Part shown: positions 2,010 to 63,951 of the stretch, in pieces
Layout: each line of letters opens with the position of its first letter
How positions within the stretch are numbered: the stretch's first letter is position 1
NCBI RefSeq assembly: GCF_041146795.1
Contig: NC_135170.1
Location: 29,313,533 to 29,377,532 of the forward strand
DNA from: Maylandia zebra
Taxonomy: Eukaryota > Chordata > Actinopteri > Cichliformes > Cichlidae
Direction: 5' to 3'
DNA length: 64,000 nt
Notes under the pieces: model-generated
The model's input: the letters and a program-made list of their open reading frames with translations, nothing else
The model's database searches: none
Told to the model about the DNA's origin: nothing
Made by a program: the position numbers and the translations under genes

Positions 2010-5000
2010 AACCAAGCAGAGGCCCACTATAAAGGTCACAAGCACGCGCGTAAACTCAAAGCCATGGAGGCCCAGAAAAACAGGCAGCGACGAGCTGGGG
2101 AGTCCTCATCCACAGGGCGAGACCGAGACCGAGACAGAGACCGGGAACGAGAGCGGGACATAAGCAAGACATCTACATCTGAGGCAGCCCTTCCCACACT
2201 TATGGATACTTGCTTAGAGGAGGGAACAAGTAGGTATAGTGGCAGAAAGATGGGACAAAGGCATCTGCAAGAGTGTGCTATTTGTAACCGATCCTTCTCC
2301 AATCCTCTCCACCTTCTTGATATCACTCTATCACTCTTTGATTCCTCTAACTCCTCTTCTGCTCCATTGCATCTTTCTAAACCCCATCAACCAATCTGCT
2401 TCTCACATTATTGACAGTTTCCATCCCCCTCCATATCTTGGCCACCTTTATCCCTTTCTCTCAGCTCCAGTGTGTTACACTTTGAGATTATATCTTCTGT
2501 ACACCTTATCCCTCATCCTCTTGGCCTCCTATCCCCACTATAAATTCAGACCTCTGAAATTGTAACTCACATTTTTTCCCCTAGAACTTTTCTGAACTGG
2601 TCCTCTGTCTTTGTGCCTTGTGATGGATGGAAGGCTCAGATGCTATGGGAATGGGGAAAAATCTGGGATAAAGAAATGCTGTGAAAATTCAGGGGCAGAC
2701 TGGGATCGATCAAAGCCTTACTGGGGCCATTTTTACCCCCTTTGCCTCGACTGCTTGACTTCACCTCAGTTACTCTATGCTCTCTTCTCTCAATCTCAGT
2801 TAGATGCAGAGGGTAGTTACAGAACCAGAATTGGTGTATCTGTGCAGCATGAAAAGAAAACCATATATTGCTTGTCCAGAATTGAGAGGGTTCCAGATTG
2901 TGGTGAGAGCATTCATTTAATGGGCTGTCAAATAGAAAATAAAGTTAGAAGACATCAAAGGCACTTATCTTCTTTTACAAAAAGTTCAAATGTTTTCACA
3001 CTGGCAGTGTAAATATAGACATTTTAACTTGTGATAAAGGAATAGAAGTGCATTGGTTTTCTTTCAACAGAAAATGAATGTTGACTTTTTCTCACCGCAC
3101 AGCTGCAACTTTACCTCAGAGAGCATGAATTGCTCCGGTGGCATTTTGACTGCAGAGTGAGCCCATTACCATCTCATGTTGCTCTTGTCTAGGTCCACAC
3201 TTTTCATTTATCCATCACAGCTGATGGGAATGGAGAAGAGCCAGAACACTTTTCCCCCCTCTGTCTTTTAGATTTTTACTTTCCTCCCCTAGAGAAGATC
3301 ACTGTCTAGGCAGAAATTCAAAATACTCTTGGATGCTAGATGGAAAATCAGAGACGAGATATGAAGGTGCTGGGGTTGGAAAGAGACTTTTTCCACTTCA
3401 TCCCATCTGACAGACATGTCCACATGCACATGAACACACATACACACACACTTTTTTTTTTTGCCTGGAGCACTTTTTGAGTCTCCTTCAGAAAGGAGAA
3501 AGTGGACAAAAGAGTAGAAGCCTGATAACGCTCTCATCAAATATCATTTTAATATTCCGCTGTTGCAAAGGAGAGCTCTGAAAGAGGAATGCAACAGCAG
3601 AGACGAAATGAGATGATGAGTGGGAAATGAAAGATAAGATGAAATGAATGAAGAACACTGAGGGAAAAGGGAAAGAATACGAGAAAGAGAAAGAACATGG
3701 AGGAGGGGGTCAGTGAAGAGAGAAAGTACATAAGTCAATGCTAGTTTTTATGCTGTGAATAATTTTGCAGTTCTAAAGCAATTTTGTGAGGAGGAACACT
3801 CTTTAATAAGCCCAATTGTGTGATTGGCCTAATGTGAAATTGAAATGCAGCAGTGCGAGCCAGTGCTGGCATGCACCACAATGCCAAACTGTAATGGAAT
3901 AGTGCTACAAATTAACACTCTATGAAATGAGTTATATCTGCCATGAAAGTAAAGGCTGGTGAGGAGCTGTCTGAGGCTAATGCCCACATTGTGTGCCATC
4001 AGGAGCCAATAACACACCTGTCTGCTATTCTTAGCACTCTGGCTCCCTGGCTCAGAGTAAACAGATTTCTTCTCAACCCACAAGGTCAGCCTCCTCAACC
4101 TCATTAGAAAATGCCTATATGCACATTTAGACACCGTAGACATTTACTACTCGTGCGCCACCTCTCGACATCAGCACTGGATGGGGTTCAAAGCGTATAT
4201 TAAACACAAGATGTTTTCCAAGAAAATTTGGAGAATTGCCACCATGGAGTGGTGTGGGTAATTAAAGTTTAAGCCTTTTCACAGCACAAATAAGAGAACC
4301 AATAATAGCAGGACACATGCATTCATAACAGTATAGCAGGGTGAGACATAAATGCATGTTTCGGTAACCATCCCACAACATGTTGGTTTCTTTAAAGTCT
4401 GACCACCTCATCTAGTTGGTAATTATTGTAACCATGATGACAAAGGTCTTCTGAGGATAATGAAGTACTGCTTTTAACCCGAGCCACAGTGTTGTGATTT
4501 CATTGTGTAAATCTAGCCATAATTGTGTGAGTTCAGAAAACAGTGCAGTTAGGAAGGCAGTGGCAAACAATGTTATTCTGTAGAATGAACTTATATTTGT
4601 TGTTTAGAGGTGCAGTGACAAATGTTGTACAACTTTGCTTTCAAAAAGTGCTTTGAAATGTTGATTAAAAACAGAATGTCCCAGTCTTTTAAAAGCAAAA
4701 ATATTAGATTTCATAAAAACAGCTGAAGTTTAGTCAGGAGCAATGAAAATTGAAAAAAAAAAAAAATGTGTGATGCTAACAAAAGACGCCTTGTAGAACT
4801 TCACACAGCCATTTGTGTTAAGTAATGTGATTGCCTATTCAAAAGAGCGCATCACAGAGAGGCTGAATCTTTCAAATGTAAAGATGGACAGGGATTCACC
4901 TCTGTGCGAAAGAGAGAGCTTGAATTTCAGTGAGGATTTCATTATCACATAACATTAAAAGATTCATAGAATCCATAGAAATCTCTTTATGCACGGATAA

Positions 5001-8000
5001 GGCCAAAAACATATCCAACTGGATCATGGCTTGAGGGCATTTCGAGCCAGTTTATCATTTACAAAACAAGTATTAAAAAGAAAAATGTATGAAAAACATA
5101 TCTATAAACTCTTAGGAAAATGTATTTTGTCAAAATGTGGATTTCTTTTCATGACTTCAAATGATCAAAAGTGCTCTTCTTGCTTACAAAAATTTAAATT
5201 TCTTTCACTTTAAAACAAACTATCCTTTCTTGGAGGGAACCTCAACAGTCCATACATTCAGAAAGGACAGGGAGTTGTACAAAGGGCACTAATCGATGCT
5301 TATAAACCATGTCCTATCCTAACAAAGGGCAGCGACTGAGCAAGTGAAGAGAGCACCAGCCTGGTGCTAAGAGACAGAGAGCCGGCATCAATCATGACAA
5401 GCATCAATCACCTTTGGCTTTGATTGACTCCACTGTTGAACCTGTCTTTGCTGGGACTATGTCTGTCACCAGTAATGATGATTTAAAGGCAAGAGTTTTC
5501 CCCAGAGAAGTTGTTTATGCTCTGAAGCTGCCTTGAATCAGCACTTGCCTGCTAAATCAAGTGCTCGGCGCTTGTATGTGTAAGAGAATTTGTGTTTAAT
5601 GACGCCAGTGTCCATATTTTTTTGTTATTTTGGCAGTGGTTAAAGTTCTCAGCGGATCAGTCTGCTGAATTGAGAGATCTAAAAGCTATTAAAACCTGTT
5701 TTATTAAACTAGACTGTCAAAAGATTAACTATTTAATAGATTAAGTCCTATTCAGATTAAAGAAATATGATGATTACCTGCATATCAGTGATCCATAATT
5801 TGCTGCTCTGTAGTTCTGCTCCACAGAAGGCCTGCTAAGAGCCCGCCTTTGATCTGATATTTTGCTAGTTTTGGTCTCTGCTTATAATGTAAACAGTCAG
5901 AGGACAAATGGGACAAATGACAATGAGACACAAAAGGCATTTTTGGATGCGTGGCAAAGTCATGGCATTAATATAAGGAAATACTGCTCATCAAAATTGT
6001 TACAGGTACCATTTGGCACATCCACCTATTATTAGATGCACATTGGACAGATTCACAGATTCACTCATGGGGCTAACACAAAGATGCTAATTATAGTATG
6101 CTCTATTCCACACCTACAAACAGTCACTAATTAATCAATCATAAATTTCACTATGCTGTAGAAGGAACCTGGCACAAACCCACACAGGGAACATGCAAAC
6201 TTCAGATAGAGACAAGATTCTTCAAACCTACATTAGTCTTGCTGTGAGAGGGTAATACTAACTACTGTCCCACCATGCCACCCCCTAGTCAAATCTGGAT
6301 CTAAATATTTAATTTGTTAAATTCGACTTCTTCAGCATTTTATTCTTTAGGTGCCAGAAATATAGTTAGTTTGTCTTAATAAATTACCAAAATGGGCACC
6401 AGTTTCATGTTGAATAATTGCATGAATTCTAGACTTATTTCAGCGCTAATGGTGGAAGAGTAAAGGTTTTCTTAGCTGTTGAAATGTAGTGTTTCTAAAA
6501 ATGGAGATCTTACCCCTGCCGAAACTCAGCAGGGGTATTTGATATTCATCCAGCAGCACAGAGTGAGGTACCTCATGATCTAAATCCTTGGATTTTTGAG
6601 GGCTTTGATTCCCACCAACCTCCATGTCTTCCTCTGCTTAATCCACTGATCAGTATCACTCCCCTCTAGAGACTTCTCAGGTGGCCCAGTCTTTCACCAA
6701 CACTCAGGATCATACCTGCCCCCACCCCCCTCAAGAGGAGCTCAGATCCCTCAAGGGTCACTCTCATTACACCAAGGGGACTGTTTAATCTTGCTTCTAT
6801 ATAGTTTCTTTTTCTTTAGTAGTAATGAGAAAGGAAGACCCTTATCTCCAATGATGAATTTACTCTGGGACGTAAAAAGGAAAAATCAATGGAGCGCAGT
6901 TGCACGGAGGGTGGTGTGTGTGTGTGTGAGAGAGAGAGAGAAAGAAAGAATGAACACTCTCCAAATGAAAATGGAGATATTCATTGAGCGTAGCACACAG
7001 TGCTCTGGGGTGAAGTGCGTGACTCCCTCGGGAGGGCCATGGGGTGAAGGGGAGACGTGTAATGGAACTCCAGTTACTTATGGGGCCAGCAGTCGATGGG
7101 TTTGTTTATTTTGACTAAGACTCCAGGTCCACTTGATATTTGAATGGAGAGGGAGAACGAAAAAGGGGAAAGAGAGAAAGAAGAATGGGAGGAGGCTGAT
7201 GGCATTTACTCACCTAAGCCAAGTGTAATCCAGTCTGTTCCACATGATTTAAAACAAAAGCTGATACTATATCAGAGAATTCCTCAAGGCTACCACATGA
7301 TAGGTTCTATTAACCTGGCTTTCATCACTTTATCATGAAAAAAATGTTTCTTTGAAGATTTTCATCTGGTGACTGTATATTCCTGTTCGTTGTATGTTAG
7401 GTTTTGTGCGCGTCTGATTGTTTTTCAGGCAGTATCATGCTCTGTAGAGATTATATTAATTCTGATCAAACAGCTTGTAGTCAGCCCAGGAAATGATACT
7501 TTGCAAATGCAACTATTCATTACAAGTTTAACAAGTAATTACATTTCCACTTTTTAGGCTTCATAGGAGTGTATGGGTAGGTTCTAACCAATTAGACCTC
7601 TAAATGTCACATACACTGTACTTTAGACATAGAGGAAGAAATAAACAAGGCATTAAAATTGAAATAAACTTCTATTTATTTGTTAAAGGGTGTCCACACA
7701 GTAATAGGCTACCAATGTCAATGAATTTCAGTGAATTATGTAGTAGTGATGTCAAGCAAAATAATAACTAGTGATGCAACATGTTCATGACGAACCATCA
7801 GTGATATTTGTTCTTTTTGGCCAATTGCTTCAAGCTAATGTGAACAAAAAACAATCTCTCCACTGAGCTCAGAGGGATTAAACTGTATTTGTTGAATACT
7901 GTTAAATAATAATAGTCAGCTATTGTTCTCTTTCCGTTCTTAATGTTTTTACAGGTCTTCAGTCTGATCTAGAATCAGCCAACCTGGAGGTGAAGCCCGA

Positions 8001-11000
8001 GGAGAATCCCAAGAGCTCGGTTATGCTGACACCTGTATCTGAGGTTTCTTCTATGGAGCTGGTCACTCTTTCCCCCCCTCAGATTTCGCCTTCTTCACAG
8101 CTCTCTGAGACAGCTTCAGACACCAGTGCCCCTGAAGTCCCAGATGCTGTGGGATCAACCAATGAGTCAGGCATTCGTGCCAACACATCGAGCACAAATG
8201 GGGTGCCTGGTACAGATGATGACAAAGACCCCAAGAAGAGCAAAGCTCACCTCCATTGTCCTGTTTGTAAAGTCACAGTAAACTCAATCTCCCAACTGGA
8301 AGCACATAACAGCGGTAAGAGCGTGATGTGTGACCTTGAGGCTTGCACTTTTTTTCTTGAAAACAGAAATGTTCTGAAATCTTTTTTCACATTTTCAACA
8401 TTTGGTTCAGTGTTACCAAATTATATACTCACACTACAACCTACCTGCCAACTCTCTGCTGTCTATACTAGGTACAAAGCACAAACTGATGCTGGAGGGT
8501 CACAGTGTTCTGCCACGACGCAGGGGCAAAGTGGTGGCAGCTCGTGCAGGCTGCAAGAGTAAGCGGCTGGGCAGCAAAGGCAGCGTTGGAGTTCCCAGCA
8601 AGAACTTCCAGTGTGAAGTGTGTGAGATCTTTGTGAATTCTGAGACCCAACTGAGTCAGGTAAAATAATTACTAATGTATCATTTACACCTTTTGCCCTG
8701 TAAAGGAGGTACTGTTCACATCGCATAAGAGTTGGCATAAATAAAAAGAAACGTATTTAACACGAGCACCACAAAGGGCATCACAGGTTTCTGCTGTTAT
8801 GTAGGAGGGCAGGGGGACAAAATTCAAGATCTAACACTCTCAGACTTATTTATCCTTCTTGTGTGGTATAAAATGAAATATGAGGAGGGAAACATGGGCT
8901 TGGGAAAGTCCTGCAGGTTTCTCAATGCATACTAAGTGAGAATCTTGCTAACCTGGTAGGATTTTGTTCAAAAGGACATAAGAGTGCTATTGACTCTGCA
9001 GGGAAAAGCACTCTAGCCCAATCATGCCACTCGGATAAAATGTTGCATACTGTATAATTACTTCACATTCACAGACAGATGATGTGGCCACAGAATTAAT
9101 TAGAAAACAAAAGTGTCTGCACACACAATTACCCCAGACACCGAGGGTTTAATATTGCATATTGAACTTAAATCACATTGCCCTGTAATGTCACAGTTAT
9201 AAAAGCTAAAAAAAAAATGATGTGCATTAAAGTGATAAATATGAATAATGAGATTTTAAAGACATTACTCGATCCGGGAGACAATTTTAACGTCACCTTG
9301 ATGGGGGAAATCTGCAAACTTAAATCAAAGCTGCTTCATTTACGGATGCATGAATCAAGCAATTGAAAGGAGGTTGTAAGTGCAGAATACATTCAAGCTG
9401 TTATTTTTACACAGATACCATCTGATGCTTTAACTAACTCCTCATTGAGCAATTATTTACCTCTCATTATTGCAAAAGCTTTCTCTATTTGCTCTGGTTA
9501 TACCAACATCAAACCGGGCTGAGATTGAATTTCTCTGCGTTTGATGTTCATTTACTGCTACATCTGTGTCGTGGGACTGTATATGCTGGAGTGGAAAAGA
9601 TGCAGGATATGTTGTCATGTGTCAGCACCCAGACTGCTTTAGCCTTAAATGCATTTCACCAGTCTTATATAAACCTCTATCCCATGAGGACGTACCCTTT
9701 AACTACTGGAGACAGAGAAGGAGCGCGGCAGAGGTAGAAAGTAATGTGATGTAATTTCTCTTCACTTCAGTCGTACTCAATGCCTATCCATTATTAATTC
9801 AGCAGATAACACTTGAAGTTGTTCCACTGTGGTACAACAGATTCTTGTTAGCTTGCTAATGGTATTTCCGCTGGTCTCAGCAGCACATGAATAGCAGAAG
9901 GCACAAGGATAGGCTGGCCGGAAAACCGCCCAAACCCAAATTTACCCCCCACAGCAAGAGCCAGCCAAGCTCCAGCTTAGCGGTAAGTCTCAGCATAAAG
10001 ACACAGGCAAACAAAACACTGTCATGCAAATATGCACACATACACACACTCAAGGAAAACAAACAAAGCATAATTGCCTTTTCTTACAGCAGATATGCTT
10101 GGATGTTCTTCCCAAAACTGGAATAATTTCAGTCTAGCTTGTAAACTAATGCATTTTTAAACAACAGTTTTAATTTTTCTCTGTAACAGTTAACTGATTT
10201 GACCCAGGCCCAGACAAACATTCAATGAAAACTGCAAACATGCAGATCACTTTACACAGGGTTCACTCAGGGACTTCAGTGTTTTGGTGAGGCAGCATGC
10301 TTGTGTGCCTGCAACTGTCATAGAGGTTAAGCATACTTTTGTACTCAGTAAGTCCCCTACCCCTGAGACAGGTCTAAAATAGTCCCCACTGACCAGCTCT
10401 GACAACAGCAGCCTGAATCAGCACTCCAGATTAATCATTTCTCTGCTCCTGTCATGTATACACCTCCCCATCTCTCCTTCTCCTCATCCCCCTCCTCCAT
10501 CCTACAGAACGTGAGATGGAGTGGCTATGCAGGCGTGGCTGTGTCTGCCATGAAGAAAGCATTCAGCCAGTACAACCTCACCTCCCTCTCCTCGCAGGTC
10601 AGTGGCAGGAGAGCCTGAGACTGGGGTTGGATTGGAAGGCGAGACTTGCAGCTGGCTGAACTTTAGGCCTGGCCATGGGCAGGGGACTTAGCAGATCTCA
10701 CAAAGAAGTCATGTTTGCATTAAAGGGATTGTTCTGATTTTTTTTTTTTTTTTTAGATTTGTTTCCATGGTTTACATGAGGTGCTACTTTTTTAACTAGC
10801 TAATGGTGATACCAATATAGCAGATGCCACTAAATAATATGGCTCCCCATGTGGCCAGTGCTATATAGCTATATTGGGCTTATCCAGGTATCTTCAAAGT
10901 TAACCCTGTGTTTTCGCTATTGCTCCTTATTCACAGGATAATATCACTATGGCAACGTATGCTTTTTGGTTATTTCATTTCATCGATTACAGTGTTCCTT

Positions 11001-13195
11001 ATCGCCAAGACTCATTAATATTGCAGTAATTGTAGCCATCATACCAAAATGATGGATGAAGCATGTTCTGAAATTAAAGTGATTAAAGTTGGTATCATGA
11101 CAGAGACTTAAATGTTTCTTATCTTGAGACTGTTTCAGGTTTTTCTTTTTTAATTGCCTACAATTTATGCAACATCTTGTGTAAATTTCTAAATTTATTT
11201 ATGATCAGTTTTATTTGCATTTTCTAAATATTACATTCTTACTTCTTTAAAAATTGTTTTAAACTATTTTTTTGTATTTAAATGTGTAAATGATTTCTCA
11301 TTCAAGCTATATCATGGCCAGTGATTAAAGCAATTGACCATTGATTAAGAAAAAAAATAAATCAGAACTATCCCTTTAATATTGGAGAGCTTTAGCGTTA
11401 CAGCCTCCAGCTTAACCCTTGTCCTGATGAAAAAGGCTGAAGTGCATCCATGCTGTGGTCCTAGATTTCAGCTGTTGTGTACAGATCTATGGAAGTTAGG
11501 CACCTCTGAATAATTTAATATTTTGTTGATTTTCAAAATGAAAATAAGTAAAAAAGCAACAACAAAAAACCCCCTCTGCAAAAACACATTAAAAATGAGC
11601 ATTTTTCACTCGTTAACGCACTGTTATTATTATTTTATTTTGAACATACTTGTGCAGATGTCTCTGAACTTCAACTGACTCTGAAGCAGGTCAAAAATGT
11701 CCTTTCAGACTTTAATAAACTCTGTGATTCATCAAAATTCACAACCTGGGGACTGCTATGAAGTAAAAAAAAAAAAAAAAAAAAAAGTGAAGTTAAAATG
11801 AAGCAAATACAGGGACTGTAAAGCGATGTCAGAGCACTTCCAGCTTGCAAGTTTTCTTGTCTGAAATGTAAATTTTAAAAATGACAGTTGAGGAGAACTT
11901 TGGATCGGACGGGAAGAAGAAAACATTCAGATAAATCTTAGGCATAGCAAAACCCTGCAAATGGCTGTAAAGGAGCTGCAGGAAGATTTAGCTGACACAT
12001 AAATGGCAGTGCACACTGCAGTGTGCAGCAGTCATGAATAAAAGGACCTACATATAGGAGTCAAAAAAACAAAACCTCACCTACACCCATATCACAAAGT
12101 TCATTATTTAAAGTATGAAAAGCAACATCTGGATAAGCCAGAGGTTGTTTTTTGGATGTGCTGTAGACAGATAAGGGAAAAGAGGGGCCCTTATGCCGCA
12201 ATTACCCAAGGATGTCTTTGGAAGGGTAAATAAAGGAGCAGCATTTGATGAAATACTAAAAGCAATGCCAAGGCTTAAGAACAAGGATGGAAATATTCTG
12301 CTTTGAGGTTTTGTGACAGCCAGTGGCACAAGCCATGGATAAACAGAAGAAAATATTCCATAAAATGTCAGAAGATTCTGGCTACAAATCTAATACAGTC
12401 TGCCAAGAGAGCAAAACTGAAAGACGCTGGCCTTTTCATTAGGACAATAATCCAAAATGTACTTCAAAATCTACTGTGACTACCTAAAGAAATTCAACTT
12501 AAAGCTTCTGAAATGGGAATTACCATTCCCTGACTTGAATATCATAGAAAATCAGTGGGTTCCTAAACATGCGTTGCATATTGCAAGGACCGAGGAAGTT
12601 ATGATAAGTGCCAAAGGTTGTTACTAAGTAATGACGTATAAAGGTTACTGCACCGCTGCACATGCAGATTGCACAGTCTATTAATTTTTAGCTTAATAAC
12701 ATGAACAGTGCTTAAACTTTGAAAACATTTTTAATGTTGGCTGTTTTTGCAGTGTTATTACAAAATATGGATTTTAACTAGAGGTGCCTAATGATTCAAG
12801 CCATCAGGAATCCAGGTCTGTTAGTAAGAACATGTACTACTCTGCTGCAGCTCTGTGTGGAAAAAGGGCCATGGCTTTGGGAGACATGTTTGTCCAGTAA
12901 ACGTGTTCTGTCCTCACTGTGTTCTTCTCTCACTTCTTGCCATTCCCCTTCCTGTTTTCTCCAGACCAAACTGGCCTTGCAGAAGCAGCTGACCAAGAGT
13001 TTGACAACTGGCTTCCTGCCCAGCCCCCTCACTCCGCCAACTCTGTGCACAGTGGCAACTAACCCACTGGCGTTGCGCCACCCAGTGGGTACAACCACCT
13101 TCATCCAGACCCCATTCCTGGGCCCTGCACTGTTCAGGCCTGCTCCGGGGCCCCTGCGGGCCACACACACACCTATCATTTTCTCCCCCTACTAA
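2010..13195 (+). CDS. znf385c: Zinc finger protein 385C-like, 3' part (six exons, 5' end outside window)
   Basis: This is a member of the ZNF385 family of matrin/U1-type C2H2 zinc-finger proteins, nuclear proteins thought to bind RNA or DNA. Exons read from the sequence are 2010-2229, 7955-8314, 8472-8659, 9884-9982, 10508-10597 and 12965-13195 (TAA at 13193), and all phases agree. The first exon opens in the middle of a finger ([12 protein letters not shown]), so its CxxC half is upstream. Exon 2 carries a second finger ([10 protein letters not shown]...LEAH) completed across the splice by GTKHK. Exons 3 and 4 form a third ([16 protein letters not shown] / [10 protein letters not shown]). 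The end is the family-typical proline-rich tail closing in IIFSPY. The paralogue assignment to C, rather than A, B or D, rests on the neighbour nkiras2. The first exon has an arginine/aspartate/glutamate dipeptide run. The 10508-10597 exon is not expected from remembered paralogues. Introns carry a TTAA MITE and a dead Tc1 copy. Confidence 0.88.
2115..2159 (+). repeat. Coding low-complexity run of R/D and R/E dipeptides
   Basis: Inside the first znf385c exon the codons alternate arginine with aspartate and then glutamate (core [14 protein letters not shown]). The DNA is a GA/CG-rich hexamer-like repeat, so length variation between alleles is plausible. RD/RE repeats are typical of splicing-related nuclear proteins, but no function can be claimed here. 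Confidence 0.8.
3570..3725 (+). repeat. Polypurine-rich tract
   Basis: About 155 bases on the plus strand are nearly all A and G, with occasional T or C, built from GAAA/GAGA/GATGA-like units. It lies in the large znf385c intron. Two minus-strand reading frames across it have low-complexity Ser/Leu/Phe content and are not genes. Confidence 0.6.
6120..6290. repeat. Decayed interspersed repeat (fish LINE/SINE 3' region)
   Basis: Words such as AACCCACACAGGGAACATGC and the later 'gctgtgag...actactgtcccaccatgcc' order match a repeat whose better copy is at about 27885-28168. The copy is degenerate and its limits are approximate. No family name is assigned. Confidence 0.45.
10508..10597 (+). CDS. 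znf385c: Extra 90-nt in-frame exon of znf385c (possible cassette exon)
   Basis: A strong polypyrimidine tract and CCTACAG precede it, and CAG|GTCAGT follows. It is exactly 30 codons, phase 0 at both ends, and open throughout (starting NVRWSGYAG and ending TSLSSQ). As I remember ZNF385B and D, the sequence runs straight from the SRRHKDR exon into the KLA-QK exon with nothing between, so this may be an alternative or paralogue-specific exon. Skipping it leaves the frame intact. Confidence 0.6.
10724..11375. mobile_element. MITE with TTAA target duplication in a znf385c intron
   Basis: The left end reads TTAA then AGGGATTGTTCTGATTTTTT. The right end is the reverse complement, reading ATCAGAACTATCCCT then TTAA (TTAA at 10720-10723 and 11376-11379). 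The 652-bp interior is AT-rich and has no transposase. A TTAA duplication is used by the piggyBac and Kolobok superfamilies; I cannot choose between them. It lies between the extra 90-nt exon and the last exon. Confidence 0.8.
11497..12790 (+). mobile_element. Decayed Tc1/mariner element in a znf385c intron
   Basis: The ends are inverted copies: TAGGCACCTCT at 11497 and AGAGGTGCCTA at 12780-12790, each including the TA target. The span of 1294 bp is close to that of a full Tc1 element. At 12440-12560 the plus strand still encodes, across stops and frameshifts, a Tc1 transposase C-terminus: a D-N-NPK-TSKSTV block, then FPDLN-IIEN. The copy is dead. A poly-A run (about 11766-11786) lies inside. 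Confidence 0.82.
12440..12600 (+). pseudogene. Tc1 transposase C-terminal remnant
   Basis: Translated pieces resemble the second catalytic aspartate block and the PDLNPIEN block of Tc1 DD34E transposases, interrupted by a stop and a frameshift. It has the same orientation as znf385c and no reading frame of useful length. Confidence 0.78.
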
Positions 13196-20460: not shown

Positions 20461-20849
20461 TGGTTGTTTGATTTAACACCCGCTTATGTTGTGTACTGAG
20501 GCAAAATTACAAGTTCAAAACTCATGGACTTAACCGGAAACCCTCCCATGAAACACAGAGTGGAATTTATTGATTTACATCGGCAGAAAACTTTGTGCCT
20601 CACATAGACAAAAACTGCCTTTAAAAAACAATGTCTGTCTTCAGTAAAAAAAAAGTGTTTGCTACGTAGTTTTTGGTTATAGGCTAAAGTGCAAATCCTG
20701 TCTCAATCTATTCACATAGTTCAGAACATAACTGCAGAAAATCAATTGCTGCTTTTTGTTTTTATTGTGCTGGACAAACTTGACTCTATGATGTGGATTC
20801 CAGTATGTCCAGATGTATATCCTAGTGTGATGTTAAAAAAAGTGTATGT

Positions 20850-20941
20850 TTCTGTTCTGTGTACTGTTTGTTTGTATATGTGTTTTTCTGGCTGCTGTTA
20901 CAACCAAATTTCAATTAAAGGATTATTCTATCTTATTCTAC
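20850..20941 (+). mobile_element. 3' tail of a truncated LINE
   Basis: The sequence GCTGCTGTTACAACCAAATT followed by AATTAAAGGATTATTCTATC and a short TATTC-like repeat is the usual 3' end of a common fish non-LTR element (…acaaatttcccc…aataaag…pentamer tail). Only the tail is present. Confidence 0.55.
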
Positions 20942-21030
20942 AGTTCCTTACAGTGACCACTGGAGGGCACCAAATTCTCCTATTTCAGTGTGTATGTTTC
21001 AACACTAGCATCCCCAGGCTTCTACCTTTC

Positions 21031-21898
21031 TACCTATAAAACCCGGAGAGCAGCCAAATGGCTTTTAGCTAAGCTTTAGCTTCAGCCAAGTGGAAGCTAA
21101 ATTGGCTAGTCATTCATATGTATATTGGGTCGTTATCTGGGAATTCTGGAGGGAGGGGAGTGGGGGTGTGTGATTGAGGGCGTGGGGGAGCTGCTAAAAG
21201 CTGTGCACTTCCTTTTGTGTTTCATCTTGATGCATTCTCAATAATCCAGGGAAATAAATCTCCAAAAGTCACCAACTTGGAGTGTTTCAGTTTGCCGTCT
21301 TAGGGAGAAATCAACACACATGGGTGTATGTCCTTTGTTGCTCAGATTTATTGATAAAAACAGTACAAAAAACCAACCATTTGTACACATATTTACAAAT
21401 AATAATAAAAAGTGAGTGAGTACAAACAATTCAACATTTTCAGCAATCACTCACAATCCTGGCACTGCCATGGTATCTGTAGTCTGCATTTACCACATGT
21501 GTATCTTTTGCAGTGAACACATCGCACAGTGGCATGATTGTTCTTGCAGTTGTGTTTGACCTGACACGTGGCTCTTTTTCCAGGGCTAGGTGTGGAGGGT
21601 TGTGTCCGAAGCAACTGTTCTTTTCTTGCCTTCTTCGCAGCTACATGAGAGCGAGCCAACTCTGTTGCAAGCGCCACCAGGAAGTCCACCCGTCTTTCCT
21701 TCGTCCCGGTGCATGCTTGATACAGCACATGTGCATTCAGTGCTGCCATGTCAATCATGTTATAAAACACGGCGACTGGCCAGCGCCGTGTTCCTTTGCG
21801 GACAGTGTACTCCCGAACCATCTGGTCCATCACATCCACGCCACACTTTGTTTTGTTGTAAAGGGAGACAGTGTTTGGCTTCCTTTTGGTGGTGTTAT
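21031..21898 (-). repeat. Left arm of the piggyBac inverted duplication
   Basis: It is reverse-complementary to 23256-24121 over about 865 bp. Visible differences include one base in the TTTGCC(G/A)TCTTAG segment and one in the AAT(A/C)ATCC segment near 21240. It includes the transposase C-terminus (minus strand, stop at 21447) and 3' UTR. Confidence 0.9.
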
Positions 21899-23262
21899 CA
21901 GTCTGAACCACGCTGTGCATGCTGCTAAGAATATAGACTGTCTTCTTCCGTTTGGCCGCATACGCCGTCAGCGTGGCAGCAGAGGTTGAAAACACCTAAG
22001 AAATAAGATAAATTGTTATTTCCATAGCCCTTTTACACACAATGAAACACATAAACATAGAACCACAAAAGACCTGTAACATACCTGAGTGGTGAATACA
22101 TTGCGATCTGTCTGTCTAGTGGATTGAGGAATTTCCCTGCGAATCCTGTTGACTGTGCCGAGGATGGTGGTTTTCCGTCTAAGAAGTTTTTGTGCCAGTG
22201 AAAGCGATGTGAAAAAAATTGTCCGTGGTAACATTTCTGCCCTTGTCTAGGAATGGTTCCATCAGCCTCATTACTACATTTTCAGAAAGTCTCTCCCCAG
22301 TGGGACGATTGGGGTCCTCCCCACTGCTGTCAGACTCCACAACAAAGACTTTAACTGAACAAACACACACATCCACACATGTGCAATAACACTAAGTGCA
22401 ATAATCCTTTCTGGCATCGTTGTATTTTTACTCAGTTGTATATAGCATTCGTATTCTATTTTTATCTTATTGTATATTTTTATTCTATTTTATTCTACTG
22501 TATATAGTATATTATTTTATTCTATTCTGTACAGCTGTGTACTGTATTTATTCTTATTGTATTCTAATTTTTGCGTCATAACTTTTGCACTGTCCACTTC
22601 CTGCTGTGACAAAACAAATTTCCCACGTGTGGGACTAATAAAGGTTATCTTATCTTATCTTATCTTATATGGGAAGACATTGCAAATGTACTTGGATTTT
22701 AGGTCGCAAGCCACCCAAAACTTGATCCCAAACTTGTCAGGTTTACTTGCAATATACTGCAGGAAACAGCACCGAGTCTTTGATGGGAAAAGCTGTTCAT
22801 CAACGGTGATATGTAGACCAGGGTTGTAGCACGTGATGCAGTTGGTGACAAATGATCCCCACACACTGGAAATTGCAGCAAACTTGTCAGTCTTTGCTCG
22901 ATCACAGCGGGTGGACTTGTCATCAAAGCGTAGGTGTTGCATGATGTTTTGGAAGCGGTTTCGTGCCATAGTTCCAATTATCTGTGGGTTTCCCAGGTTT
23001 GCTGACCAGCAGTCATTTACAGATGGAACCCTGTAAACCCCCCGCAAGATCACAATTGCAATAAATGCCATTAGTTCAGGGAGGTCCATGAACCAATGAA
23101 CATGCTCCGTTTGCTGTGCATGTTGAATAGTCCATTCTTGAATGCTACGAAGCATGTCAAGAGTGATGAAACACAGGAAGCTCTGAAGGCGACTCGAGAT
23201 ACTTCTCCTGGCCTTAGCCGTTGGCTCTCCATCTGCAGCGTACGCTTCTATTGTCATAACAC
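21447..23262 (-). pseudogene. piggyBac transposase, N-truncated and LINE-interrupted
   Basis: On the minus strand the pieces run 23262-22669 (a PGBD domain stretch with QHLRFDDKSTR and a typical first catalytic-region VDEQLFPSKTR), then after the LINE 22318-22180 (GERLSENVVMRLMEPFLDKG, RNVTTDNFF), then 22150-22090, and finally 21995-21447 (KTKCGVDVMDQMVREYTVRKG). The end is a Cys-rich zinc-binding tail (CVHCKRYTCGKCRL...CQDC). This order is that of piggyBac transposases. Missing are roughly the first hundred residues, cut off at the inverted-duplication junction near 23256. The LINE and small breaks also disrupt the frame between 22090 and 21995. Non-functional as it stands. Confidence 0.85.
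22319..22668 (+). mobile_element. 5'-truncated LINE inserted in the piggyBac transposase
   Basis: On the plus strand it begins with the last codons of a LINE ORF (PTAVRLHNKDFN then TGA), continues with an AT-rich 3' UTR of TATTCTATTTTA-like words, and ends ACAAATTTCCCACGTGTGGG, AATAAAGG and a TTATC pentamer tail at 22643-22668. It splits the transposase between the VFPYK and DPNRPTGERL segments. The orientation is opposite to the host transposase. The target duplication could not be defined. Confidence 0.8.
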
Positions 23263-24121
23263 CACCAAAAGGAAGCCAAACACTGTCTCCCTTTACAACA
23301 AAACAAAGTGTGGCGTGGATGTGATGGACCAGATGGTTCGGGAGTACACTGTCCGCAAAGGAACACGGCGCTGGCCAGTCGCCGTGTTTTATAACATGAT
23401 TGACATGGCAGCACTGAATGCACATGTGCTGTATCAAGCATGCACCGGGACGAAGGAAAGACGGGTGGACTTCCTGGTGGCGCTTGCAACAGAGTTGGCT
23501 CGCTCTCATGTAGCTGCGAAGAAGGCAAGAAAAGAACAGTTGCTTCGGACACAACCCTCCACACCTAGCCCTGGAAAAAGAGCCACGTGTCAGGTCAAAC
23601 ACAACTGCAAGAACAATCATGCCACTGTGCGATGTGTTCACTGCAACAGATACACATGTGGTAAATGCAGACTACAGATACCATGGCAGTGCCAGGATTG
23701 TGAGTGATTGCTGAAAATGTTGAATTGTTTGTACTCACTCACTTTTTATTATTATTTGTAAATATGTGTACAAATGGTTGGTTTTTTGTACTGTTTTTAT
23801 CAATAAATCTGAGCAACAAAGGACATACACCCATGTGTGTTGATTTCTCCCTAAGATGGCAAACTGAAACACTCCAAGTTGGTGACTTTTGGAGATTTAT
23901 TTCCCTGGATGATTGAGAATGCATCAAGATGAAACACAAAAGGAAGTGCACAGCTTTTAGCAGCTCCCCCACGCCCTCAATCACACACCCCCACTCCCCT
24001 CCCTCCAGAATTCCCAGATAATGACCCAATATACATATGAATGATAAAATATAGCTTCCACTTGGCTGAAGCTAAAGCCTAGCTAAAAGCCATTTGGCTG
24101 CTCTCCGGGTTTTAAAGGTAG
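23256..24121 (+). repeat. Right arm of the piggyBac inverted duplication
   Basis: This is the inverted copy of 21031-21898. It encodes, now on the plus strand to a TGA at 23705-23707, the same transposase C-terminus starting at NTTKRKPNTVSLYNKTKCG and ending in the CQDCE tail. It lies head-on against the truncated N-terminal side of the minus-strand transposase. Confidence 0.9.
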
Positions 24122-24241
24122 AAAACGCCAAATGGCGATCCGTGGGGGTTTAAGTGTCAATCAAGGACTGCACAGTCGCTGATTTCAATGGTACGTTGGT
24201 CTATGTAGGTTCTCATTCATGCAAGTCGTGGCGGTCTTAAG

Positions 24242-25222
24242 CAGTGTTGGTCAAGTTACTTGAAAAAAGTAATCAGTAACTAATTACTGATTACTTCCCC
24301 AAAAAAGTAATCCCGTTACTTTACTGATTACTTATTTTCAAAAGTAATTAATTACTTAGTTACTTTTTAAAAACACGATTTACAACCTGAAGAGGTGATA
24401 AAGCATAGATCTTTCAGCCCAATTCTACTTTTTCTACATAATCCATCATACAAAATGTAATCAAATGGAGAGGTACCTTTTGATAAAAACTTGTTTTATC
24501 AGTTTTAATCTTTTAACTTTATGCATCAAGCAAAATTTTAATTATATGCAACATTCTCTGACTTGAATAAATTAGTTTAACATTTAAACCTATTTTCTGC
24601 ACATTCCAGCACATAAAATAAAATATTTTTTGTGTTTACACTCACTCTTTCAAATAGATGCAAGTAAAACACAGCAGAAAATAAATAAAGTCAAAGACTC
24701 AGCGGTCCTGTTGCTCTATTTTCACCTGTAAAGCAGAACTGCGGTAGGCGGAGGTTTACCCTGGTGCAGGTGTGCCACGGTCAGTTGAAGAATCCGCGAG
24801 TTTCTCTGTGAGTTTCCCATTACGTCATTGCGCACTCGGTGCTTGCTTGGAAGGGGTTTTTTCGCTGTAAAAAGAAGTTTTCTTCCCACGCACGATGGAC
24901 ACTAATGTTTTTGTCACTTTTTATGGAATCAAACTCAAAGTAAGGTCAATACTTCCACGCTTTAAACGCTGCACGCTCATACTCTCTCCCACAATCGATA
25001 TATGATCCATTGTTGATCTGCACACAGCTGTTGTCACTAACGACGCACTCGCTTACATCACTGTCGTGAGACATTCTCGCAAAAATCACGGTTTTAGTAA
25101 CGCAGCGTTTCTACGGGAAAGTAACGGTAATCTAATTACCGTTTTTGCAATAGTAATCCCTTACTTTACTCATTATTTGAAAAAGTAATCAGATTACAGT
25201 AACGCGTTACTGCCCATCTCTG
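24242..25222. mobile_element. Non-autonomous hAT transposon with perfect 8-bp duplication
   Basis: The flanks are GTCTTAAG at 24234-24241 and again at 25223-25230, an exact 8-bp target duplication as made by hAT transposases. The ends are imperfect inverted repeats: CAGTGTTGGTCAAGTTACTT at the left, and CAGAGATGGGCAGTAACGCG when the right is read in reverse. Many AGTAATCAGATTAC/AAGTAAT-type subterminal motifs lie near both ends. The 981-bp interior has no transposase frame. It sits only 88 bp beyond the piggyBac copy. Confidence 0.9.
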
Positions 25223-36392: not shown

Positions 36393-39300
36393 ATGGCAAA
36401 CATCGACGCAGACCTCGAAGACCAGCAATCTAAGGGCGTATTCGCAACTTTAATGGCCGATGGGAAATGGATGTACCAGGCAGGAGAGTATAAAAAAGCT
36501 ATAGACAGCTTCACAGAGGTAAGTGTTAAGTGTCGTTACCTTTTCTCTGATTTTTTTAAGCACTCTAGAAATGGCTCACTTCTTTTCTTTGTTTAGGCAC
36601 TGGCTTTAAAGCCTAGTGACAAGCAGTGCTTTGTTGCTCGGTCCAGATGTTACCTGAAGATGGGAGGGTTTGACAACGCTTTGAGAGATGCAGAAGCTTC
36701 ACTTAAAAGAGACAACTCGTTTTTTGAGGTAAATGTTTTTCTGCTGTCATGATAGAAAATGAGTAAAATGTATCTTTATATCCCCGCTAAAGGTTCAGTG
36801 CCTATTGTATACATTTGTTTTGAATCACCATTTTAGGGTTTGTACCTGAAGGCAGAAGCTTTATACTACATGGGAGAATTTGAATTTGCCCTGGTGTTTT
36901 ACCACAGAGGCCATAAACTACGTCCACAAATGCAGGAGTTCAGACTGGGTATCCAGAAAGCACAGGAGGCCATAGAAAACTCTGTTGGCAGTAAGTGTCT
37001 TGTTAATAGTGTTGCAATCATCTCACATCTCCTTACCTAAAATATGAGCCGCTTGTTCTTTGCCATCTTTTAGGTCCTTCCAATGTGAAATTGGAGATTA
37101 AAGGAGACCTGTCATTTCTCAACATAGGTGGTGAGGTGAGTCTTTGGTGCATATATCTTCAGTAAATAATAATAATAAAAACAACCCCACTGAGGTAAGT
37201 CACAATTATCACAGTACAGCACAAACTCAGTTAAACTTAAGGGACATCATCTTACCAGCTGGGATGCTTAAACCAATGTGAATCGTGCTTTGGTGCATTG
37301 GAGAGGTAAGACCAAGGAAACCTCCAAAAGTCTTTGCAGCTGGTAACTAGGATGAAACTAGATGTGTATCTAGGATGGCACATCTATTCAATGTGCCATT
37401 GCAATGACGTTTTCTTTGTCTCCCAACACAGTTACCAGAGTGTGGAGCAGTTTGGTCAGAGCAGCATGAATGATTAGCCTTCTGGAGGTCTTTTTGTAGG
37501 GCTGTGGCAGTGCTCCTCCTGTTCCTCCTTGCACCAAGGAAAAAAATACTGGTGCAGCTCTCTTTAACAGCCTTTCTCCTGATACAAGTTCCCTTAATTT
37601 TTATTTGAGCAATGTATTTAACATGCAGGCTTAGAGGCAGAGCTGTTCTAACGGTACAAGGGAAATAACAATAAAAATGACAGTATTTGTCATTTAGCCA
37701 GGATTCGTTGCAGGAAGGCACTACAGCTCGCTGTATATCAAAACTGCTAGACAATAGAAAGATTTCTTCCCTCTTGCTATGAATCCAATGAACAGTTGTC
37801 TTGATGCATGCTTAATCATCCAGGTAGGTAAATCCATGTCTGAAGAAGTCACTTGGATGAACAATGAAACATTTCTCCCACTGAAAGAGACTGAAAATGT
37901 TACATAAACAGTTAAATCCATGCACACTCAAATCCTATCACCACCTGTATGTATTCTGTAGAACAAGGCTGAGTCATTGCTTCAATTATGTGTCTTGTCT
38001 CAATCCCCCCAAAACCCCTGCAGTTTTCTGTATGCAATGTTTAGCCTGACCTGTCTTCTGATGCACAGTGTTATGTTATGTTTCTGAACTGTTAAGAGGG
38101 CCAAACCAATTGCAGCTATCCAGAATCTCACAAAGAAGAAAAATCAGAAGACTGAGAAAACCCCAAAGAGTGAAAAGACAACCAAACAACTTCTGGGCGA
38201 GTTTTATAGTGACAAGAAATATCTAGAAAATCTGATGAAAGATGAAGGTAATTTGCTATTTGTTCAAATTTACACACACTGTATGTTTCTATGTATCTAA
38301 CTGTCACCTAGCATATACTGTTCAAAATGTTTACTTAAAAAAAACAACTATATCTGTTTCATTCTTGTTGAATAATATTAATAGCTGTTATGTAATGATT
38401 TGCAGACTTGATAGAAGGTACAACAAAGAGTGGGGAGAAGGTGAAGGACATCATTCAGAGATGTCTGTCTTACCTTGACACTTGCACTGAATTTTGGCAC
38501 CAGGAGAAGCCTACTTCTGCACAAGAAATGAGGCAGAAGTTCATGCAAGAGAAATGTACAAAGCGCCGTAATAGCGCACTCTCTTCTGGATTTCTGCTGA
38601 AAAGCCTGGATGAAATTGACAGAGGCAAGATAGCATTCTGGATAAACATAGACCTTGATTCTCTCTTTTACTTTCAGTTTAAAAATTCTCACTGTCCTCT
38701 TTGTCATCCCAGAGTTTATGTCCGGAAATGCAGAAGGCACTCTGAAGAAGGCAGAAGAAGTCATGAAGATGGTGCAGAGGTGGTCTGAGAAAGAGGTTCC
38801 TAATAAAAAAGAGGTTTTGGGCACCTTGCACAGTTGCATTGGCAATGCTTTAGTTGACCTGGGAAACATGGACAAAGCATTGGAGCATCATCAGAAAGAC
38901 CTGGAGTTGGCCAAACAGTGGTGAGAAGAAAGGCAGAATAGGAGTAAAACTACATATTTGGACGAGAGATTAAATCCACCACACAAACTTCTTCATAGAC
39001 CAGAACCAGTTCTATAGAACATATTACTATTGACCGTCAGCAGCTTCACTGGCTTCTTGTAAAGTATTGCATTCATTTTAAGATTTAGCTTCTTACTTTC
39101 AAGTCTCTCCATAATCTCGCACAACCATATCTCTCTGGTCTTCTGCACATTGCTACTCCTTGCTATACCTTGAGATCCTCCTCCTCTTTTTCTTTCATTA
39201 TACCACCTACTCGTCTGACTACCATGGATTTTAGAGCTTTCAGCCGAGTGGACCTCTCATCTTTAGAAATCTCTCCTGTAGCACACTCACAATATTGATT

Positions 39301-50465: not shown

Positions 50466-63951
<13,486 letters not shown>

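Follow-up and report, generated by a model that had tools for sequence, protein, structure and literature searches.

The window, a 64,000-nt stretch of the Maylandia zebra genome (C4:29313533-29377532 of a 962-Mb assembly in 63 contigs), contains a transposon-derived element lying between two genes that converge on it. The left neighbour is a C2H2 zinc-finger gene, presumably ZNF385-like, with a zf-met match at 7906-8559 (Pfam) and a last exon, without Pfam match, that we read at 12782-13192. The right neighbour is a Ras-family gene (Pfam), which we take to be NKIRAS, and CNPase is found further right (Pfam). The inferred coding ends of the zinc-finger and Ras-family genes are near 13195 and 27184. 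Other repeats are also present in the window. A Tc1-like element at 55329-56965 carries inverted repeats of 217 bp (98%) and a transposase stretch of 286 codons without a stop (HTH_Tnp_Tc3_2, DDE_3); an AT-rich inverted and direct repeat (GTAATCAGTAACTAATTACTG...) at 24260-24380, to the right of the element, looks like another fish repeat; and a 36-bp match occurs at 37799-37834.

The complete element spans 21003-24156 (3154 bp), with a 4-bp target-site duplication (TSD), TCAA, on either side. Its true ends are known because it was compared with its family relatives in the same genome (33 loci, L009-L041). A degenerate terminus tried in the left flank scored no better than shuffles (1105 of 2000 reached its score), and the real end is seen only through the relatives. 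The features of the element are as follows:

20999-21002, no strand: left TSD copy, TCAA, the same 4-mer being present at both family-defined ends
21003-21026, plus strand: A-type terminus (CACTAGCATCCCCAGG...), located at the 5´ side in the long copies L023, L024, L026, L028 and L032
21027-21898, minus strand: left arm, comprising inverted repeat, 3´ UTR and C-terminal coding part, continuous with the transposase
21447-21995, minus strand: transposase exon 3, coding for the C-terminal catalytic portion and a cysteine-rich tail; its edge is set by analogy with L026, which has an open frame
21899-23253, minus strand: spacer with the remaining exon 3, the intron and a truncated exon 2
21996-22084, minus strand: intron, by analogy with L026
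22319-22666, no strand: later insertion of 348 bp with a TTATC-repeat tail
23254-23255, no strand: 2-nt filler at the inversion junction
23256-24124, plus strand: right arm, an inverted copy of the left arm that stops within exon 3
24125-24156, minus strand: B-type terminus (CACTTAAACCCCCACGG... on the minus strand), the parental 3´-end type, containing TTAA at 24150
24157-24160, no strand: right TSD copy, TCAA

The initial annotation described this locus as a snap-back piggyBac in which the 3´ half is duplicated in inverse orientation, and alignment of its two near-identical arms (21027-21898 and 23256-24124) bears this out. The gapped alignment covers 872 columns, of which 12 differ (9 substitutions and one 3-nt gap; 98.6% identity), and an ungapped stretch of 789 nt is 99% complementary. 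A chance origin of arms this long at such identity is ruled out. Both arms encode the C-terminal part of a piggyBac-type transposase plus the 3´ UTR (DDE_Tnp_1_7; 6x67, E 5.4e-14). The Pfam DDE_Tnp_1_7 model scores over the cut-off in three of four window fragments and just under it in the fourth (22.2 vs 22.4 bits). The spacer (1357 bp) carries on the left-arm transposase on the minus strand (6x67, E 3.5e-28), with one frameshift in exon 2 near 22200. The 348-bp insertion, which we take to be LINE-like, was not found at this place in the relatives that cover it.

Two other statements of the initial annotation changed on comparison with the family. The loss of the 5´ part of the transposase gene stands, since the upstream region, exon 1 and the first part of exon 2 are absent; the 5´ end of the element itself, also thought to be missing, is present as the A-type terminus, the type found at the 5´ end of the five parent copies. 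A TTAA with a terminal repeat had been placed only at the right, and this proved mistaken: both ends exist, TCAA is the duplicated site, and the TTAA at 24150 is internal to the B end. The long arms forming much of the element (872 bp in 3154 bp) are a feature of the fold-back class. MITEs are short, non-coding and present in many copies of one length; the window element has 3154 bp, coding remnants and a unique junction. Rfam gave no match at gathering scores over 20500-24800, and no relatives were found among viral contigs, either by protein (13 pattern stretches, none confirmed) or by the 26-nt subterminal pattern.

The relatives were obtained by searching the source genome with the left arm, which gave 42 matches from the best 40 of 927 candidates; a second search, with exon 2, scored the best 40 of 301 candidates. 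The family set comprises 34 loci, the window and the 33 others. Most of the outer ends terminate at one shared position, ...AGTG, with the 4-bp target site directly after it. Two end types occur in the family, A and B, with A located 5´ and B 3´ of the gene in the five long copies listed above. The A end has 190 occurrences in the genome at up to one mismatch, and its reversed control has none. The family ends start with CACT, and the CCC termini used as a piggyBac criterion were not found. This start is no bar to membership, because CACTA has been reported as an end motif of the superfamily (PMC10813416).

The same 4-mer is present on both sides in 17 of the 21 loci with both ends called, whereas shifted controls (55 x 55) average 0.19 matching loci and never exceed 3. 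The A end of L034 was a false pattern match, and TTAA was used to place one end in L010, L013, L018 and L023; when these five are left out, the duplication matches in 14 of 16 loci. The duplicated site is TTAA in 10 of the 17 cases, and the remaining seven are TCAA (window), TTGA (L009), TTCA (L019), CTAA (L025), GTAA (L033) and CTAG (two cases, L032 and L037). The family tolerates target sites besides TTAA. L016 and L020 have flanking sequence in common and probably go back to a single insertion that was duplicated.

In 19 of 20 loci (L034 left out) an A end is combined with a B end. The rule is not absolute. A TTAA-flanked copy with two A ends lies at L038:2417-4967, and at least two further close inverted A-A pairs are found among the matches listed (C1:29969795/29971722 and C9:4810364/4811828).

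Several members of the family retain the complete gene. An uninterrupted three-exon transposase frame of 538 aa is present in L024, L026, L028, L034 and L035, and one of 536 aa in L023, while the frame spliced by the same landmarks is broken in L014, L021, L029, L032 and L040. The protein of L026 matches Pfam DDE_Tnp_1_7 (E 5e-77) and the piggyBac transposase 6x67 (E 4.5e-68). L026 is 4036 bp long and has inverted repeats at 25-495 and 4003-3532 (472 columns, 99.15%), which already take in the last codons of the transposase gene (stop at 3579). Upstream of its start codon there is a 91-bp tandem repeat in 11.8 copies, whose units contain an inverted 53-bp piece of exon 3 at 92.5%. Because the units hold this inverted piece, the 5´ end of the parent seems to be what is left of an earlier fold-back. 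The pre-transposase repeat unit, in varying copy number, was seen in L026 (L026:3055-7090) and also in L021, L023, L024, L028, L029, L032, L034, L035 and L038. In L021, a long copy, the A-type and B-type ends are swapped relative to the gene.

Seen against these parents, about half of each window arm is the inverted repeat that they already carry, and the newly duplicated part amounts to just ~400 bp of exon 3. The A end of the window copy is fused to the 3´ half of the transposase gene and the other arm is closed by the B end. The A side carries 3´-half sequence down to position 2115 of L026, the B arm ends at 3128, and two filler bases lie between them. The initial annotation had proposed looking for other copies with the junction at 23256; a search of the 962-Mb assembly at up to 2 mismatches found this single occurrence and no sister copies. 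The window fold-back therefore shows no sign of having multiplied; it may have arisen in situ from a parent already inserted there, or have moved a single time.

The window element is likely to be a non-autonomous fold-back derivative of a long-terminal-repeat piggyBac family, generated by an inverted-repeat template switch followed by end joining. The starting point would be a parent whose two short termini differ but are each followed, on the inner side, by one of two near-identical 472-bp inverted repeats. While a copy was being repaired or replicated, the strand growing from one terminus would cross over, through its inverted repeat, to the corresponding repeat at the far end. It would then copy the 3´ rather than the 5´ half of the gene, so that both arms run inward from the 3´ side. 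The gap would be closed by end joining with a 2-nt filler, at the cost of the upstream region, exon 1 and some of exon 2. Since one A and one B terminus would be retained, the ends could still be paired by a piggyBac transposase, allowing mobilisation in trans. We infer the template switch, the order of events, the mobilisation in trans and any movement of the window copy as a fold-back. PiggyBac excision usually closes without DNA synthesis, so gap repair would not be the normal piggyBac route; template switching during replication fits the sequence equally well. The window copy can be derived in two ways: the switch may have taken place at the A end of a normal parent, or at the B end of a parent whose interior was inverted. 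L021 looks like a parent of the latter type.

Arms that reach beyond the parental repeat and take in 3´-half gene sequence were found in 10 of the 34 loci (window, L015, L018, L019, L025, L030, L031, L036, L037 and L041); as the loci were picked by likeness to the window arm, this proportion is no genome-wide rate. L022 (528 bp, 88%) was excluded from the count as borderline. The ten loci have 8 distinct junctions, one of them common to L025, L031 and L036. Both ends and a matching duplication are present in seven of the ten, namely the window and L019, L025, L030, L031, L036 and L037, and are not found together in L015, L018 and L041. L030, L025, L031 and L036 are near-palindromes, of 1970 to 2754 columns.

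In the young subfamily, 5´ and 3´ ends differ over the outer ~50 bases. In L025, L030 and L037 a 5´-specific outer end (100% to L026 1-495) is joined to 3´-half sequence, the hallmark of copying that began in the 5´ repeat and switched to the 3´ one. Unlike these three, L031 and L036 carry 3´ alleles up to the last 24 nt. Fillers at the fold-back junctions measure 2 nt in the window, 4 in L037 and 29 in L030, and the junction of L025, L031 and L036 has an imperfect 6-nt overlap that includes a mismatch, making the microhomology weak. Plain internal deletions in the family have fillers of 19 nt (L012) and 4 nt (L010) or overlaps of 2 and 5 nt (L027 and L033). These fillers and overlaps are consistent with end joining, which leaves such marks. 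A 13-nt "filler" in L009 was rejected as such, being arm sequence that is missing in L026; the window arm matches right up to it.

The junction of L025, L031 and L036 occurs at exactly three sites in the genome (up to 2 mismatches). The 400-bp flanks of the three copies are mutually unrelated and their TSDs are CTAA, TTAA and TTAA, respectively, while L025 and L031 differ by only 5 mismatches and 1 gap in 2794 positions. This fold-back has transposed, as one junction is found at three sites with unrelated flanks and separate duplications. The arms of L031 and L036 are identical from nt 25 to 1355, and inverting the centre of L031 yields L036, apart from 1 mismatch and 18 gap columns. These gaps are put down to cutting at equal distances from unequal ends, and the simplest reading of the inverted centre is recombination between the arms. 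Like the ends, end types, duplications and junctions, the fold-back at three sites and its inverted-centre isomer are direct observations. Taken together, the sequences suggest that fold-backs have formed several times in this genome and that at least one of the resulting hairpin-shaped elements has jumped. Inverted arms of ~1.3 kb at three sites on different contigs, mutually identical in two of them, bear on the stability of palindromes in vertebrates.

The exon 2 search gave further inverted arrangements. Two more inverted exon 2 pairs are found among the matches listed (C17:10746552/10747904 and C14:13929423/13930573). In addition, the same inverted 53-bp exon 2 piece lies ~26 bp past the exon 2 match in four copies (C4:7184051, C15:7062824, C7:4229418 and C8:8726339). 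These four, known from their positions only, are perhaps another amplified derivative.

The relationship between the two window arms bears on how the element arose. The duplication had been described as recent, which is right in kind: the arms are ~1% apart. The left arm is nearest to an arm of L009 (4 differences in 872 positions, compared with 9 in 869 from its own partner), and the right arm is nearest to L010 (8 in 898). The tree places the left window arm with the L009 arm (support 90/73), in weak agreement with the distances, and constraining the two window arms together is borderline (AU p 0.054). The two window arms have no base in common that is lacking in the other 58 arms of the comparison, and this tells against the ongoing gene conversion suggested in the initial annotation. 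Given the lack of exclusive common bases, the tree and the nearest relatives found elsewhere, the window arms were probably not homogenised once they had formed, and a different member of the family may have been the template for the second arm. The differences between the arms cluster outward: the outer 83 columns contain 6 events and the remaining 789 contain 4 (Fisher 1e-4, for a boundary set after the fact; permutation 2e-5 on all 10 events and 0.0018 once neighbours are merged into 7). Conversion of the inner part of the arms, first suggested by this clustering, was set aside, as comparison with the relatives shows most outer differences to be private to the right arm or to follow the end type; the clustering is not fully explained.

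That neither window arm has its partner as closest relative, together with the AU value, would also suit an origin from two adjacent piggyBac copies in opposite orientation, joined by deletion of the intervening DNA, the arms being the 3´ halves of separate insertions. Such a deletion predicts two outer B ends, whereas the window has one A and one B, and a single matching TCAA duplication flanks the whole element. Moreover, six other fold-backs (L019, L025, L030, L031, L036 and L037) show the same A and B combination with TSDs of their own. An origin of the window element from two copies is thus very unlikely. Long inverted repeats are a hazard for genome assembly, and a fold-back of this kind could in principle be created by the assembler. 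Here, however, the arms differ by 9 substitutions and a gap, 1357 bp of unique spacer lie between them, the TSD is present on both sides, and nine more loci have extended arms, with 8 distinct junctions over all ten; an assembly artefact is hardly credible. The template switch with end joining, in which one A and one B terminus are kept, is the reading that we prefer.

The predicted fold of the window element has 861 inter-arm pairs (MFE -2094 kcal/mol), and a transcript running through it could form a long hairpin and dsRNA. By analogy with Mu killer of maize, the transposase 3´ half, transcribed as a hairpin, might feed small RNAs directed against active copies of the family. The architecture is alike, an internally deleted element with an inverted partial transposase gene; the pairing predicted between the window arms would suit such a role, as would the fact that one arm of L031 and of L036 is 100% identical to the open-frame copy L026, over 1331 and 1364 bp, respectively. 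Against this, the window arm is only ~94% like the young copies, the element lies between convergent genes, ~7.8 kb and 3.0 kb past their inferred coding ends, and the hairpin model has been questioned even for Mu killer (PMC3440606). A silencing function of the window locus is accordingly improbable. A broader proposal, which we regard as doubtful, is that the long inverted repeats of a recently active piggyBac family serve as a switch: template switching between them would repeatedly convert coding copies into near-perfect, mobile hairpins of the transposase 3´ half, and the family would thus produce its own potential dsRNA repressors, spread by its own transposase. If true, this self-repressing hairpin family would be the equivalent of Mu killer in a vertebrate, and a mobile one. 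This genome would allow tests of the template-switch model, of whether an A end has to be paired with a B end, and of self-silencing through hairpin transcripts.

Several traits of the family are already on record in other systems. In the piggyBac superfamily, CACTA is one of four reported end motifs and the TSDs include TCAA, CTAA, GTAA and TTAG; like the fish family, PiggyBac-2_Cvir of the oyster has a long TIR, which measures 528 bp in the oyster element (PMC10813416). Unlike the fish family, the long-TIR elements are presented in that account, as far as available, with no description of fold-back derivatives or inversion isomers (PMC10813416). Fold-back derivatives of piggyBac were not found described among the open-licence literature matches listed, and this form seems new within that literature, whereas long piggyBac TIRs, CACTA ends, TCAA duplications and, for Galileo, the recruitment of an ORF end are not. 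Tm1, a Foldback-like element of root-knot nematodes, resembles the fish family in its long composite inverted repeats, asymmetric outer motifs and many non-autonomous copies (PMC3169594). Its repeats consist of ~14-bp tandem motifs and its transposase is Mutator/Phantom-like, whereas the fish arms are copied gene sequence (PMC3169594).

Mu killer, a MuDR derivative for which silencing has been reported, shares with the window element the internal deletion and the partial inverted duplication of the transposase (PMC3440606). Its two TIRs come from one end of the element, in contrast to the A and B ends of the window element, and the accessible part of the source text mentions no movement (PMC3440606). 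Another parallel is Galileo, a fold-back-like DNA transposon of the P superfamily in Drosophila, whose long inverted repeats have also taken in the terminal part of the transposase ORF. In one copy this part exceeds 500 bp, and in 2014 such ORF recruitment was called unique to Galileo so far (PMC4168063). The fish piggyBac belongs to a different superfamily and host, and goes beyond Galileo in that end-specific termini reveal which end copied which half and one extended form is found at three sites. With these termini, open-frame parents, several junctions and a fold-back that has moved, all in one genome, it provides a readable case of the birth of a fold-back transposon.
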